A DNA stretch of 64,000 bases from an uncultured Allomuricauda sp. (GTDB lineage: Bacteria; Bacteroidota; Bacteroidia; Flavobacteriales; Flavobacteriaceae), in contig NZ_CAKZYF010000026.1 of assembly GCF_937884665.1 (NCBI RefSeq), positions 1 through 64,000 on the forward strand, written 5' to 3'. Positions 1-63,030 of the stretch are shown one piece after another. The translations under genes and the position numbers were made by a program. Every line of letters begins with the position of its first letter. Position 1 is the stretch's first letter. The notes beneath the pieces were generated by a model. That model was not told the DNA's origin and searched no databases. It saw only the letters and a list, made by a program, of their open reading frames with translations.

Positions 1-314
1 ATAAACCTATCGTGTGGATCGTAGGTGGGGCTGATATATGAAATGATTAGTCTGAGGTGATGCCCTTGGTCCGTGAAAAGGTAAAGGCCATAATATGTCT
101 TGGAATGGATAACTCACGAATAATGGAGGCGTTTGGCAATGTGATTCATCTTATGGTTGAGACGTATTCTATGCATGAGGCTGTTAAAGTAGCCTACAAA
201 ATTGCTGAAAGGGGTGACAATGTACTGTTATCGCCTGCTTGTGCCAGTTTTGATCTTTTTGAAAATTATGAAGATCGTGGCAATCAGTTTAAAGAAGAAA
301 TAAAAAAACTTTAA
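1..314 (+). pseudogene. murD: UDP-N-acetylmuramoylalanine--D-glutamate ligase, C-terminal end, with two in-frame stops
   Basis: This is the C-terminal part of the Mur ligase that adds D-glutamate to UDP-MurNAc-L-Ala in the cytoplasm. The reading frame enters at base 3 as KPIVWIVGGAD and continues after the lesion to [19 protein letters not shown], a typical MurD ending. Between them the frame holds TGA at 39-41 and TAG at 48-50, where family members read roughly GGxDKGNDYSE. The rest of the gene lies left of the window. Two His residues (NVIHL and SMHEA) sit where Asp is usual. The next gene, ftsW, starts two bases after the stop. Identity is secure; whether the stops are real or sequence errors cannot be told here. 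Confidence 0.85.
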
Positions 315-5986: not shown

Positions 5987-6026
5987 TAACCCTTTTGAGC
6001 AAATAACAAACAAGACAAAGAACGTT

Positions 6027-27007: not shown

Positions 27008-27073
27008 GCGAAATGAATCGGTTCGTCTTTAGGACCTAAGCTTGGGAAAGGGTATTCTTGGCGTGGTGGCGTA

Positions 27074-28810
27074 TTAGCTTTTCAATTTGTTGAATTTAAG
27101 ATTTTGTATCCCATCTGTAAAAATGGTAAAACCATCTATTTTTCCGGATGTATCCCTCGCAAAACGGATACTTCCAAATTCAATCGCATCACTTCTGAAA
27201 ATGTCCTTCATGACCGGGTAAAAATTGACCATTTTCCCTTTAGGACCTCTTGCCAGAAGCTGTTCTCCGCTTATTTCGAAATCGTAGATAACTTTCAGGT
27301 CTTTATTGTAAAAGACCCCAACATATTCATTCAGATTTTCCGATTTACTGGGGGCATATCTTACATATCGATAAGGTCTGCTTTCCCCAAGGGTCACGTC
27401 GTAGATGGCCTTTCCTTCGATTTCCTGAAACGAAAAAATGATTTTTTCATCCCCCTCCACTAGTAGTTGAAATGTTTCTGAGGTCTATAGGGGAATCAAT
27501 GGCGCGCCTTCCTCTTGGTCCAAACGCTTGTAAAAAAGGGTATCCCTTTCTACTTGAAGTTTACGGGCAATACCCCGTTTGGCGTCCCAGTAATGCCCTT
27601 CATACTTTTTTAGGGCTTTGGCGGATAAGCTTCGTATTTTTAAAAGCTTTGGGTCAATCGAGCTAGGTTCCGTATACTGATTTTCAATATACTGATTGGC
27701 GTGAAGCATGGCCGGCATACCGTTGTATTCATTGTTGTTTCCCAAAACGAAAGAAGTCAGCTGTTGTTCTGGAAAACGAAACACATTTGAAGCATACCCG
27801 CCCACACGCCCAAACTGCCAATAGGCAGGTAAGCCCCGCTCTTTATGATAAAAGGACCTTCCCAAAGTCAGCTGGCCCCACCAAGAATCGAACGTCGCTC
27901 CGTTTTTGAGCGTAACGGGTTTATCCAATTTTCGCATTATTTGGGAAAGTGATGTCTGTGCTTTTCCAGTCAAGGCAGTGTACCATCTGTTCAGGTCTTC
28001 GGCCGAGGTATAAAACACATGGGTAAGACGGAGTTTTTGAAGTTTCAGTGAATCTCCTTGATTTTGATACGAAATCGCCTTGTTCTCTAAGATGTTGTTA
28101 TCCTCTTTCGAAAAACAACTGTTTTCCATTTGTAATGGACTAAAAATGTAGTCGGTCGCAAAAGAGGCCAAAGATTGGCCCGATGCTTTTTTAATGATTT
28201 CCAACATGAGGGTAATTTCAGTTTTGGACGTCATGTAGGAGAAGTTGGTTCCCGGTATAAAGTTGAGCTGCTTTTGCGTACGGATTACGTTCAAGTCGTC
28301 CTCTTGCGTATGTAGGTCATTATCCTCTATCCCTATAATCCTTCGGAGCATTCTAAGGTCATTCAGTCCGCTTGAGTGATTTACCAAGTGTGATATGTTC
28401 AGTCTATGTTGGTATTGGGGAAAATCCGGCAGGTATTTTCGGAGGGGATCCCCCAAAGAAAGTTTCCCTTGGCTTTCAAGTATCAGAATTCCTAAAACCA
28501 CAAACTGCCTGGAGGGATAACCGATCTGAAATCGGGTCTTAGCGTTGTTTTTTTTGCCATTGTCCACATCAGCATAACCGAAGGCTTTGGTATATCTTAT
28601 GGAGTCGCCATAAATAAGGCCTGCGACAACACCAGGTGCTTGTTTGTTTTGCCACTGACCGAAAATGCTATCTATGCTGATATCTTTTGGAACGGATGAC
28701 TGTGATTTAGCTGGCATCACCGTAAGGAGTAAAGTCGATAAGACAACAAAGCGAAGCTGGTTTATGGAAATAATGGGGTTTGACGCATTCGAACGTGCAC
28801 TTGGTCTCAT
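27074..28810 (-). pseudogene. Secreted serine hydrolase (beta-lactamase family), broken by one in-frame stop
   Basis: The frame runs from 28810 to a TAG at 27487-27485 (after APLIPL), then continues without shift to 27074 (TSETFQLLVEGDEKI...). Together that is 578 codons, fitting a beta-lactamase-related serine hydrolase with a C-terminal lipocalin-like domain. A signal peptide precedes the catalytic part, which shows the modified active-site region FQIGYPSRQF in place of a clear SxxK, then SYMTS at the YxN position and GRVGGYASNV. The part after the stop is the second half of the C-terminal domain. The start overlaps the upstream gene by four bases. The stop may be a sequence error. Confidence 0.7.
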
Positions 28811-32352: not shown

Positions 32353-33216
32353 TTATCCCAAATAGGTCTTCAAAATTTTACTTCGAGAAGTATGTTTTAA
32401 CCTTCTTATCGCTTTTTCTTTTATCTGGCGTACACGCTCTCTCGTAAGGTCAAAAGTTTCCCCGATTTCCTCTAAGGTCATGGAGTGCTGTCCCGCTAAA
32501 CCAAAGTAAAGACGGATAACATCCGCCTCTCTGGGGGTCAAGGTCTCTAAAGCACGTTCAATTTCAGTACGTAGGGATTCGTGCAAGAGTTCTTTGTCCG
32601 GATTGGGCGATTCACCACTTCGCAATACATCGTATAAATTGGAGTCCTCTCCATCAATCAAAGGGGCATCCATGGATACGTGACGTCCAGAGTTTTTCAA
32701 AGATTGTTTAACATCCTCAACGGTCATGTCCAATTCTTTGGCAATTTCTTCTGCGGAAGGAATACGCTCATGGGCCTGCTCCAAAAAAGCAAAAGTTTTA
32801 TTGATTTTATTGATGGGCCCAATTTTATTCAAAGGCTAGCGTACGATCCTGGATTGCTCGGCAAGTGCCTGAAGAATGGAATGACGAATCCACCATACGG
32901 CGTACGAAATGAATTTAAAAACACGGGTTTCATCAAATCGTTGCGCAGCCTTGATTAATCCAAGGTTTCCTTCATTGATCAAATCAGGAAGTGTCAATCC
33001 TTGGTTTTGGTACTGTTTTGCAACAGAGACCACGAATCTGAGGTTGGCTTTAGTTAATTTTTCCAAGGCTATCTGGTCACCCGCTTTAATCCGTTGCGCC
33101 AATTCTACTTCCTCATCGGCAGTGATTAAATCCACTTTGCCAATTTCCTGTAAGTACTTGTCCAACGAAGCGGTTTCCCTATTGGTAACCTGTTTTGTAA
33201 TTTTTAACTGTCTCAT
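32353..33216 (-). pseudogene. rpoD: Housekeeping RNA polymerase sigma factor RpoD, interrupted by an amber stop
   Basis: The full frame would encode 287 residues, the normal size of the short primary sigma factor in Flavobacteriia. Regions 1.2, 2, 3 and 4 are all recognisable ([59 protein letters not shown]). Codon 127 is TAG (32838-32836) between RIVR and PLNKI, where Leu is universal in relatives. Nearby, three further replacements fall in near-invariant positions: Gly99 to Val (RVFKF), Gln112 to His (WWIRH) and Ser134 to Pro (GPINK). A cell should not survive on this copy, so error or a second gene must be considered. Confidence 0.88.
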
Positions 33217-33372: not shown

Positions 33373-35580
33373 CTAGTCCCTTCTTGGTTTCCTGTCCCGG
33401 GTTCCACCTCTTCGGTCACCTCCACGGTCATTACGTGGGGGTCTTTCTTTATATCCCTCAGGTTTGGGTAGCAAAGCTTTTCTAGAAACTTTCTCTTTTC
33501 GGGTCCTTGGGTCTAGCCCGAAGTACTTAACGTCGATGACATCACCGAGATTCACTACATCGGTCACTTTGTCCGTGCGTTCCCAAGCTAATTCAGAAAC
33601 GTGGAGCAACACCTCGTTTCCAGGAGCTTCGGTGTACTCGACCACCGCACCAAAATCCAGTACCTTAATGATCTTTACTTCGTATACACTTCCCACTTCT
33701 GGTTTGAACATCACCGCATCGATTTTTGCAATGACCGCATCTATACCAGCTTGGTCCGTACCCAAAATCTCAACAATCCCTTCTTCGGTGTCCGGGTCTT
33801 CATTGATGACTATGGTCGTATTGGTCTCCTTCTGTAACTCTTGGATGACTTTTCCGCCAGAACCGATAACTGCACCGATATATTCTCCAGGAATAATCTT
33901 GGTAACAATTTTTGGAGCGTACGACTTGACCTCTTCACGGGGAGCTTCAATAGTATCCGTTAGGTGATTTAAGATATGTAGGCGTCCGTCCTTGGCCTGC
34001 ATCAATGCTTTTACCAAAATTTCATAGGACAATCCTTTGACTTTGATATCCATTTGACATGCGGTTATACCATCCGAAGTACCGGTTACTTTAAAGTCCA
34101 TATCTCCCAAGTGGTCTTCATCGCCCAAAATATCGGAAAGAACCGCATATTTACCTGTTTCGGTATCCGTAATCAATCCCATAGCAATACCTGAAACCGG
34201 CTTTTTAAGCTGTACACCGGCATCCATTAAGGCCATGGTACCCGAACAAACAGTGGCCATTGAGGAGGATCCATTGGATTCCAGTACTTCGGAAACCACG
34301 CGTACCGTATACGTGCAATCTTCAGGAACCATTCGCTTGAGTGCGCGTTGTGCTAAATTACCATGTCCAACCTCTCTTCTGGAAGTACCCCGTATGGGTC
34401 TTGCCTCTCCGGTTGAAAATGGAGGGAAGTTGTAGTGCAGGTAAAAAGTTTCTTCACCTTCATACGATGGCATGTCAATTACATTAGCCTCTCTCGAAGT
34501 ACCTAATGTTACAGTTGCCAGAGCCTGGGTTTCCCCTCTTGTAAATATGGATGAACCATGAACCGAAGGAAGATAATCAACTTCGCACCAAATAGGACGA
34601 ATCTCATCGGTCTTTCTGCCATCCAAACGTAGGCCTTCGTCCAAAGTAAGGGTGCGAACCGCCTCTTTTTCAGCTTTGTGATAGTATTTTGAAATTAATC
34701 CACCTATTTCTTCCAGTTCTTCCTCGGAAAACGTCTCTTTTATTTCTTCTTTGATGTTGAAAAATGCCTCGCTTCTTTCCTTCTTTGAAGAACCCGCCTT
34801 GGCCACGGCATAGACTTTATCATAAGCCATATCGTGGATTTTTTTCTTGAGTTCTTCATCTTCGGCTTCGGGCTCGTATTCGCGAACTTCTTTTTTTCCG
34901 AAAGCTTCGGCCAATTTTACCTGTGCAGCACACTGTACTTTAATGGCTTCGTGGGCAAATTTGATGGCTTCGACCATTTCCTCTTCGGATATTTCAGACA
35001 TCTCTCCCTCAACCATCATCACCGAATCTTCAGAAGCACCGATGACCATATCAATATCGGATTCTTTCAGTTGTGCTCTTGTAGGGTTGATGATCAACTC
35101 ACCGTTGACCCTGCCCACGCGGACTTCAGAGATAGGGCATTCAAATGGAAAATCAGAAAGTTGTATCGCTGCGGATGCGGCCAAACCGGCCATGGCATCG
35201 GGCATCACGTTTTCGTCATGTGACATTAATTGGATCATTACTTGCGTCTCAGAATGGTAATCCTTCGGGAATAAAGGTCTCAGAACGCGGTCCACAAGAC
35301 GCATGGTCAATACCTCTCCATCACTGGGGCGTGCCTCTCTTTTGAAAAATCCACCAGGATAACGCCCTGCTGCGGCAAATTTTTCACGATAGTCCACAGT
35401 TAGTGGCAAAAAGTCCACATCTGCGGCTTGATAATTGGAAACTACGGTACACAATAGCATACACTTTCCTGATTGAACCACCACAGAACCATGGGCCTGC
35501 TTGGCCAATTTTCCGGTTTCAATAGAGATTTCCCTACCGTCACCAAGGTCGATGACCTCTTTAAAAGTTTTTGGAATCAT
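33373..35580 (-). CDS. pnp: Polyribonucleotide nucleotidyltransferase (PNPase)
   Basis: 735 residues. A phosphorolytic 3'-5' exoribonuclease of the mRNA decay machinery. Two RNase PH cores are visible ([27 protein letters not shown] in the first; [15 protein letters not shown] and [19 protein letters not shown] in the second), then a KH domain ([21 protein letters not shown]) and an S1 domain ([25 protein letters not shown]). The C-terminal tail is rich in Arg, Gly and Asp, as in other Bacteroidota. Transcribed with or just after rpsO, the classical rpsO-pnp arrangement. Confidence 0.96.
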
Positions 35581-35768: not shown

Positions 35769-36038
35769 TTATTTTCTAATACCCAGTTCTTTAATAAGGG
35801 CTCGGTATTTTTCAATATCTTTTTTCTTGAGGTAGTCCAAAAGGCTTCTCCTTTTACCTACCAATTTCACCAAAGAACGCTCTGTTGCATAATCCTTGTG
35901 GTTCTTTTTCAAGTGTTGTGTCAAGTGGTTGATACGGTAGGTAAACAGTGCAATCTGTCCTTCCGTAGAACCTGTGTTTTGTTCGGAACCCCCATGTTTC
36001 TTGAAGATGTCCGCTTTTACTTCCTTTGATAAATACAT
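35769..36038 (-). CDS. rpsO: 30S ribosomal protein S15
   Basis: 89 residues, the full family length. S15 binds the central domain of 16S rRNA early in 30S assembly. HGGSEQNTGSTEGQIALFTYRINHLTQHLKKNHKD (ends given) and LVGKRRSLLDYLKKKDIEKY are the typical blocks. It precedes pnp. A leader of about 70 bases between promoter and start could allow autoregulation, as known for S15 in other bacteria. Confidence 0.97.
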   Translation of the reverse strand: MYLSKEVKADIFKKHGGSEQNTGSTEGQIALFTYRINHLTQHLKKNHKDYATERSLVKLVGKRRSLLDYLKKKDIEKYRALIKELGIRK

Positions 36039-45507: not shown

Positions 45508-46857
45508 ATGAAGATCATTATTGCGGGTGCCGGTGAAGTAGGCTTTCATTTGGCTAAATTATTGTCTTATGAAGCCCAGGATATAACGTTGATCGATACG
45601 GATAAAGAAAGTTTGTCATACGCGGATAACCACTTGGATATTCGGGTTTTGCGAGGGGATGCCACATCGATAGAAGTGCTGAAAGAAGCACGGGTGGAAA
45701 ACTCAGAGTTAGTGATAGGCGTGACCGCCTCCGAAACTACCAATTTGACACTTTGTCTGTTGGCTAAACAGCTGGGATGTGAACGTACGATAGCGCGGAT
45801 TTCAAATACGGAATTCATGGACAATCGGGATGTGATCAAGTTTGATGAATTGGGTATCGACGAGCTTATTTCCCCAGAAGAGTTGGCGGCCACCGAAATC
45901 CAATTACTCTTGAACCAGTCCGCATTTAATGATACTTATGAGTTTGAAGAAGGTCTGTTGACCATGATCGGGGTGTTTCTTCCGAAATCGGCTCCTTTTG
46001 TCGGGAAAATGGTCAAGGAAGCGGCCACCATCTTCCCAGAGCTCCATTTTATGCCCATTGCACTGCAGCGTATGGGAACGCAATTTACCGTTATACCTCG
46101 GGGAGATACCATTTTTAAAGAGGGCGATCAAGTATATTTTATTACTTCTGCAGGGGGGGTGGATGAACTGTACAAGCTTACAGGAATGCAAAAAAGAGAA
46201 ATAAAAAATGTAATGATTCTCGGTGGAAGTAAGGTGGGATACAAAACGGCAAGAGACCTTTGTACTAAAAAATTCAATGTAAAACTGATTGAAAGGAACA
46301 AGGAAAAGGCATTTGATATTGCCGATGATATACCCCATGCGCTTGTAATAAATGGGGACGGGCGCAATGTGGAACTTTTGGACGTAGAAAGCTTGTAATC
46401 GATGGATGCCTTCATCGCAGTAACCGGAAATTCAGAGACCAATATTATGTCCTGCTTGGTCGCCAAGTCGAAAAAAATAAAAAAAACGATAGCCTTGGTA
46501 GAAAATATGGATTATTTCCAGCTCTCCCATTCTATCGGTGTAGACACCTTGATAAATAAAAAACTGTTGGCAGCCAATAATATTTTCAGATATATCCGTA
46601 GGGGGGAGGTTTTGGCCTTGACCCGACTGAATAATTTAACTGCGGAAATCCTTGAGTTTGAAGTAAAAGCAGATTCTTTGGTAAATGGTGAAATTATAAG
46701 AGAACTTAATTTTCCCAGGGAAGCTATTATTGGTGGGGTGATCCGAGATGGGAAGGGTATCATTGCGCTTGGGGATTTTAGAATTATGGAGGGGGACAAA
46801 GTAGTGGTCTGTTCCAAGCCCAAGGCCATCTCCAAAATAGAAAAGCTCTTCCTGTAA
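45508..46857 (+). pseudogene. trkA: Trk potassium uptake NAD-binding regulator TrkA, interrupted by one stop
   Basis: TrkA is the cytoplasmic gating ring of the TrkH channel, built of two RCK halves. The frame begins KIIIAGAGEVGFHLAKLL (first Rossmann fold) and the second fold starts VMILGGSKVGYKTARDL. Codon 297 (46396-46398) is TAA, between DVESL and SMDAFIAVTGNSETN, with no frame change. Restored length is 449 residues, exactly that of relatives. Val in DVESL also replaces the Glu I expect. The last base overlaps trkH. A truncated protein would lack most of the second RCK domain. Confidence 0.88.
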
Positions 46858-61631: not shown

Positions 61632-62381
61632 ATGGCGATTGATACCGAAAAGAATAGTTAAACCGTACTGTTAGCCGATATTATGGTGATAGTCGTGGGA
61701 TCAGTATTGGCTTTTATGGCATCGGGTCTCAGCGAAAAAATTTCCGAGAACGAACGCTTTGAAAAGCAGAAAAATATTCTATATGCCATGGGCGTCAACG
61801 AAAACACCCCGGATAGTGGTGTTAACTTTGTTCCTACCAATGTGGTCGAAGAAACGTTCACACAAGAAATAAAAAAACAGTACGTCTGGGTAAACGGTGA
61901 AATCCAGGAGGACAATCAGGCGTTTTTGATAGACGTGAAAGAGCAACTGGCCGCTTCCAAACAAGGAGGGGAGGCGCGATTGCCCATATTTGTGGGAGAA
62001 AAAGATGGAGAAGAAATTTACGTTTTGCCCATGTACGGTAAAGGACTATGGGATGCTATATGGGGCTTTATGTCCGTAGACAAAAATATGGTAGTTCAAG
62101 GGGTTTATTTTGACCATCGAGGCGAGACGGCTGGACTGGGGGCCAACATCAAATTGCGGTTTTTCATGGACGACTTTACCGGAGAATCCTTAATGGAGGG
62201 TCAAAGCTATAGCGGAATTGAGGTTTCCAAAACCAACAATGACCCGCTCAACAACGACAAAGAAGATAATGAGGTGGATGCAATCGCAGGGGCTACTATA
62301 ACCGGAAATGGCGTTTCGGCCATGATAAAGGAAACTTTAAAAGCGTATCGACCTTATTTGGAAACGATTAGAACGAATTAA
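61632..62381 (+). pseudogene. nqrC: Na(+)-translocating NADH-quinone reductase subunit C, interrupted by a stop at codon 10
   Basis: NqrC carries the second covalent FMN. The gene starts MAIDTEKNS at 61632, two bases after nqrB, but codon 10 is TAA (61659-61661), where relatives have NSYT. Two codons past the stop the sequence reads VLLADIMVIVVG, with Asp in the middle of a transmembrane helix; neutral residues are usual. The remaining frame to 62381 is complete (249 codons in all). The flavin-attachment motif is IAGATIT (about residues 218-224), with Ala at the first Ser position. Restart at 61683 would leave half the anchor helix. Confidence 0.85.
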
Positions 62382-62382
62382 A

Positions 62383-63030
62383 ATGGCACTACTTTCAAAA
62401 AAAGACGCGAATCTTATATTGGATCCCTTGGCGGACAACAATCCCATTACCATTCAGGTTTTGGGAATATGTTCTGCATTGGCCATTACCGCAGAACTCA
62501 AAGCGTCTCTAGTGATGTCTATCTCTGTTATTTTTGTAATGGGCGTGGGCAATGTGGTTATTTCGCTGCTCAGAAATGTAATACCATCTAAAATTCGGAT
62601 TATTGCACAGCTCATCGTTGTGGCTACTTTGGTAATCGTGGTCGATCAAGTATTAAAAGCCTTTGCTTATGAACTCAGTAAGACCTTATCCGTATTTGTC
62701 GGATTGATTATTACCAATTGTATCATCATGGGCCGTTTCGAAGCGTTTGCACTGGGAAATGGGGTCTGGCGATCTATTTTGGACGGAATTGGCAATGCTT
62801 TGTGGTACGGTGTTATCTTGGAAAAGATAGGTTTATTCAGAGAATTGTTCGGTTCTGGAACATTATTTGGTATTCCTGTATTGGGCGATCCAATCGCTAA
62901 GACCGGTCTTTACGCTACCGGATATGAAAACAACGGATTTATGATAATCCCACCAGCCGCTTTGATTGTAGTGGGTATTATTATTTGGGTACAACGTTCC
63001 CGAAATAGAGCATTGATCGAAGAAGCATAA
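62383..63030 (+). CDS. nqrD: Na(+)-translocating NADH-quinone reductase subunit D
   Basis: 215 residues, six transmembrane helices. NPITIQVLGICSALAITAELKASLVMSISV and VFVGLIITNCIIMGRFEAFAL with the conserved cysteines of the NqrD/E iron site (GICSAL, NCIIMGR) are visible. It starts one base after nqrC. Confidence 0.95.
   Translation: MALLSKKDANLILDPLADNNPITIQVLGICSALAITAELKASLVMSISVIFVMGVGNVVISLLRNVIPSKIRIIAQLIVVATLVIVVDQVLKAFAYELSKTLSVFVGLIITNCIIMGRFEAFALGNGVWRSILDGIGNALWYGVILEKIGLFRELFGSGTLFGIPVLGDPIAKTGLYATGYENNGFMIIPPAALIVVGIIIWVQRSRNRALIEEA

Follow-up and report, generated by a model that had tools for sequence, protein, structure and literature searches.

A premature stop and three unusual residues in the rpoD gene of an Allomuricauda draft genome, most likely the product of sequence errors

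The window analysed here is a stretch of 64,000 nt from an uncultured Allomuricauda sp. (assembly GCF_937884665.1, contig NZ_CAKZYF010000026.1, positions 1 to 64,000 of the forward strand). On its reverse strand lies rpoD, the gene for the primary sigma factor, interrupted by a stop codon and deviating from its relatives in three further residues close by. Has this lineage lost or altered its primary sigma factor, or is an ordinary gene seen through faulty sequence? Our analysis indicates that the broken-looking rpoD is most likely ordinary and not a biological discovery.

The interrupted sigma factor gene and its locus

Translation of the rpoD frame, 287 codons followed by the terminal stop, yielded exactly one internal stop, the TAG at codon 127, as claimed in the earlier note. 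The residues V99, H112 and P134 sit near it (Table 1). The sigma regions 1.2, 2, 3 and 4 are all present, but not in one open frame, as the TAG lies between Pfam regions 2 and 3. The residues for −10 recognition, otherwise invariant, deviate at position 112, which is His here vs Gln in 105 of 105 relatives. Aligned to solved sigma factors, H112 falls on the Gln of the WWIRQ motif, which we take to be Gln437 of E. coli sigma70, in agreement with the correspondence proposed earlier. The −12 shift expected from such a change has indeed been described: the available part of PMC8321222 reports that the E. coli Q437H variant prefers C at −12. PMC8321222 also lists Hodgkinia strains with His at position 437, so a working sigma factor can in principle carry this residue.

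Table 1 Features of the sigma factor locus and of other interrupted genes. Positions are those of the window unless a contig is named.
Feature	Position	Strand	Basis
rpoD, primary sigma factor, 287 codons, broken by one TAG as assembled	32353..33216	-	translation, comparison with relatives
Premature TAG, codon 127; Leu in 105/105 relatives	32836..32838	-	translation, comparison with relatives
Cluster of four residues (codons 99, 112, 127, 134) unseen in relatives	32815..32922	-	comparison with relatives
Upstream fragment, 126 aa, sigma regions 1.2 and 2	32836..33216	-	PF00140, PF04542
Downstream fragment, 159 aa from TTG, sigma regions 3 and 4	32353..32832	-	PF04539, PF04545
pnp, open frame, upstream neighbour of rpoD	33373..35580	-	locus comparison
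rpsO, open frame	35769..36038	-	locus comparison
RpoD-like paralogue (L002, L227), open, 78% identical to the primary gene	G000:C101:4439-5299		
trkA with premature TAA at 46396; radical substitution 12 bases upstream, at a site on which five congeners agree	45508..46854	+	
nqrC-like gene with TAA at codon 10 (61659), FMN_bind domain; listed open frame starts at 61683	61632..62378	+	
murD-like gene, 3′ part at the contig end, premature stops at 39 and 48	3..311	+	

The neighbours of rpoD are presumably pnp and rpsO, and the order rpsO-pnp-rpoD is that of the congeners: the match running from rpsO into rpoD formed one piece in 18 of 23 cases and two close pieces on one contig in the other five. 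Because this locus matches that of the congeners' primary gene, the window rpoD is, judged by gene order, the primary sigma gene of the organism and not an extra copy.

The earlier note had offered, as one of two readings, a decayed extra copy beside an intact one elsewhere. This did not hold up. A search of the genome returned a single further rpoD match, the open frame on contig C101, which retains the −10 recognition helix WWIRQSI. Among the matches listed, 70 of 71 genus genomes (this one included) show a match of at least 82% to the primary gene, the exception being G078, a 79% complete genome. A second match, with 69–74% DNA identity over at least 809 bases, is seen in 69 of 71 genomes among the matches listed; that in G078 spans 443 bases, and none is listed for G080. 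Because such second matches occur across the congeners, the C101 gene is, from its distribution, best placed as a separate standing paralogue of the genus and not as a second primary gene. A near-identical, intact second rpoD is absent from the assembly, which at 96.91% completeness could still lack such a copy. Gene conversion from the paralogue was considered and rejected: with Gly, Gln, Leu and Thr at codons 99, 112, 127 and 134, the C101 gene was not the donor of the odd residues.

The four positions in related sigma factors

We compared the gene by tblastn with 110 loci, of which 105 matched and were counted; this set includes paralogues, among them L002 of the same genome. Gly99, Gln112 and Leu127 were invariant in 105 of 105 loci, and position 134 was Ser in 99, with Thr, Ala, Val or Asp in the rest. 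The residues of the window at codons 99, 112, 127 and 134 were found in none of the 105. The near-invariance of Gly99, Gln112 and Ser134 that had been expected from the sequence alone is thus borne out, with some latitude at position 134. We then restricted the comparison to rpoD genes of the same genus, collapsing identical genes into 67 distinct ones. The residues at all four sites are invariant in this set, and an internal stop occurs in none of the 67.

Read the other way around, 283 of the 287 residues of the window RpoD are seen among these congeners, and the only unseen ones are the same four. They are packed into 36 of 287 codons, which is not an even scatter, and the cluster spans roughly one short read. 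The changes are therefore both without counterpart in relatives and crowded into a read-length stretch, as expected of a cluster of errors.

The available part of PMC9723704 describes a TAnnTTTG box as recognised by the primary sigma factor of a flavobacterium. We counted this box and its variant CAnnTTTG in 356 upstream regions of this genome and 1228 of the congener G084. TAnnTTTG was found 80 times in sense and 47 times in antisense orientation here, vs 269 and 169 in G084, so the usual box is about equally enriched in both. CAnnTTTG occurred 27 times in sense and 20 times in antisense orientation, vs 102 and 103 in G084, counts too small to judge the slight lean. The altered promoter recognition raised in the earlier note thus left no clear sign in the set of either box.

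These counts bear on the idea of a truly altered sigma factor, in which His112 shifts recognition at −12 from T to C and the protein is possibly made in two separate chains, divided between regions 2 and 3. The position of the TAG between these regions, the Hodgkinia strains with His at 437 in the available part of PMC8321222 and the lean of CAnnTTTG toward the sense strand would suit it. The undiminished enrichment of TAnnTTTG does not, and we regard it as extremely unlikely. For the split in particular, the production of either fragment would be a supposition, against which the other three residues and the further broken genes described below argue.

Premature stops and substitutions elsewhere in the assembly

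When proteins of five congeners were compared with the window, premature stops appeared in rpoD (32838), trkA (46396) and nqrC (61659), each against five of five congeners. The name nqrC is our assumption, and so is murD, chosen from gene order, for the gene at the contig end. There, within window positions 1-50, the murD-like frame has its two stops 9 bases apart plus another radical change.

For a genome-wide count, we used 1357 open reading frames of G084 as the reference, took HSPs of at least 55% identity, keeping the best one per place, and excluded stops in the 8 codons nearest each end of the reference frame. The count therefore covers the part of the genome that meets the G084 sample, and the five congeners serving as controls were not matched for assembly quality. 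In this genome, 15 interior stops were found in 61,593 aligned codons (172 HSPs, ~478 kb), vs nine in 75,394 codons (217 HSPs) of the five congeners, where all lie at codon 40 or earlier. Beyond codon 40, there are eight stops in this genome and none in the controls, which, as noted, were not matched for assembly quality: four in the window, one on contig C27 and three on C115. Defects similar to that of rpoD thus affect unrelated genes here and are rarer in these controls.

Not all of these stops carry the same meaning. Seven of the 15 lie at codon 15 or earlier; the nqrC stop among them is taken as real because the start of the gene aligns in all five congeners, and the others may reflect the start of the reference frame. 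The stop on C27, at codon 491, interrupts a gene of 734 residues with 92% identity elsewhere. The three on C115 sit close to C-terminal ends (codon 481 of 506; codons 568 and 572 of 586), so these could be natural. The stops in rpoD, trkA, nqrC, murD and C27 can be reached from the residues of the relatives by transversion only, which, given the few sites, is weak evidence.

The same homology search revealed no frameshift in the compared genes of this genome or of the five congeners. Two possible frameshifts near 6000 and 22920 were set aside as the frames are antisense to real genes. A codon-usage scan for frames split by stops had yielded three sites in 477,960 bases here, four in 400,000 of G084 and seven in 400,000 of the five congeners. 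It missed the rpoD and trkA stops and was dropped as too insensitive in favour of the homology count.

Two further places in the window were observed. At 27050-28810 lies a serine-hydrolase-like gene whose halves are separate frames here, and the corresponding frame of one congener, G004, runs through the site of a TAG at 27487. At 62776-62848, five close residue changes, including G to W and I to K, occur where the aligned congeners are invariant; this is possibly another error cluster.

The openness of the rpoD frame on both sides of the TAG might suggest that this codon, or stops generally, are read through or recoded and a full-length protein is made. However, the premature stops comprise TAG, TAA and TGA, and they stand at places occupied in relatives by Leu, Glu or Asp, Tyr, and Gly; there is no single stop that consistently replaces a single residue with a tRNA to match. 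A suppressor anticodon was found in none of the 29 tRNAs detected, a set that lacks several expected tRNAs and so weighs little by itself. Recoding does not fit, since differing stops replace differing residues and no suppressor appeared in this incomplete set, and read-through would in addition leave V99, H112 and P134 unexplained. We give it next to no credence.

The stops in unrelated core genes bear equally on a true loss of the gene. The C101 paralogue is open and has its recognition helix preserved, and it could have taken over after the primary gene had died in this lineage. It is very unlikely that this happened, considering that 67 distinct congeneric copies are free of stops and that a match of at least 82% to the primary gene is present in 70 of 71 genus genomes among the matches listed, all but the incomplete G078. 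Decay should moreover scatter changes over the gene and gather insertions and deletions, but here all residues except four are seen in congeners and the frame is otherwise open, and other core genes of the assembly carry like hits. A wider version is just as improbable, in which the primary sigma factor of this lineage is gone, or is divided between a chain with regions 1.2-2 and one with regions 3-4, and the housekeeping role has passed to the genus-wide paralogue. If loss were true, the lineage would be living without a canonical primary sigma factor despite a genome of ordinary size.

To gauge substitutions other than stops, we counted radical residues unique to one genome at columns present in all six genomes (HSPs with >45% identity, >150 bits and >60 residues) and on which the other five agree. 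The window had 17 such residues among 161, three of them stops, and 14 of 158 without the stops, which the congeners, drawn from open frames, could not show. The congeners gave 5/110, 12/137, 7/54 (G016), 3/60 and 3/135, or 30/496 pooled. This excess is at most modest support for errors, because the share in G016 tops that of the window. By calculation, ~4.4% of uniform random substitutions create a stop. With seven to eight stops in ~185 kb of aligned coding sequence, this corresponds to roughly one erroneous substitution per kilobase, if all the stops are errors.

Error cluster or chimeric stretch, and comparison with known systems

The clustering of the four changes, their absence from relatives, the ordinary locus and the like defects in other core genes led us to consider it very probable that the stop and the three odd residues are a cluster of substitution errors from assembly or sequencing in an ordinary primary sigma gene. 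In terms of the two readings in the earlier note, the local error cluster thus gains from the defects in unrelated core genes, and the decayed extra copy loses to the ordinary locus and the status of the C101 gene as a paralogue. Substitution errors within one stretch of ~110 bases would have produced the stop and the three residues, in an assembly that is a draft and probably a bin. The likely route would be low coverage, with the stretch put together from a handful of reads, some of them perhaps from a related species. The living cell would hold an intact rpoD, reading the usual TAnnTTTG promoters.

The state of the assembly is consistent with such a route. It consists of 216 contigs with 4.19% contamination, and we infer that the genome is a metagenome bin in which low coverage or mixed reads were the cause. 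A stretch of C27 (L247, G000:C27), together with its tRNA-Ser, recurs as a second, syntenic copy at 73% identity on contig C14 (L329, G000:C14), and the G084 sample has one match to the C14/C27 stretch. The pair fits a bin that holds contigs of a second, related species, with natural duplication as the alternative.

Codon choice is a point that speaks against errors. In codons 88-140, with the four changed codons omitted, the silent codon surprisal was 79.8 bits, vs 44.8 on average and 60.7 at most in the congeners (n = 67), and a few random errors would not give such an excess. It is not robust, however. Divergence extends to the remainder of the gene, where codons 141-287 rank sixth of 68. 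Two congeners surpass the window when codons 95-140 are scaled to the rest of the gene, and in a scan with the four codons neutralised the peak of the window lies at codon 239, inside the range of the congeners. When every difference was counted, those at the four changed codons among them, the clustering in codons 107-136 reached z = 4.52, vs at most 2.96 in the 20 congeners with gap-free full-length alignments. The pnp gene of this genome is also above the congeners (3.56 vs 3.26).

This divergence raises the prospect that the contig incorporates a piece of rpoD from a related species, to which errors were added, a sub-case that overlaps with errors as such. The unusual silent codons in codons 88-140 and the 73% identical syntenic copy of the C27 stretch within the bin point in this direction. 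A chimera alone, however, cannot give the stop or the three residues, which none of the compared relatives has, and the nearest loci still differ at 23-25 of the 159 bases in codons 88-140. Because the silent excess proved not robust, we rate a chimera lower, as unlikely. A long branch together with errors accounts for most of the unusual divergence, and a chimeric stretch could account for the remainder.

With the error cluster as the preferred explanation, this case calls for caution: highly conserved genes such as rpoD act as sensors of base-level error in draft genomes, and where a core gene seems lost or re-specified, the remaining genes of that assembly should be consulted first.

Among known systems, SigO-RsoA of Bacillus subtilis is a two-part sigma factor with its regions on separate chains. 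The two rpoD fragments would likewise place sigma regions on separate chains, but they are known from sequence alone, and the odd residues and the other broken genes oppose such a parallel. Another likeness is to false premature stops arising as errors in long-read drafts, as described in the available part of PMC12007338. As there, core genes of one assembly contain premature stops, here without counterpart in congeners; unlike there, the genes compared here show no frameshifts. With the RpoD/SigA proteins of the Bacteroidota, the gene shares the length of 287 residues, the regions 1.2, 2, 3 and 4 and the rpsO-pnp-rpoD locus; it departs from them by the internal stop and the three odd residues, all within one stretch and most likely erroneous.
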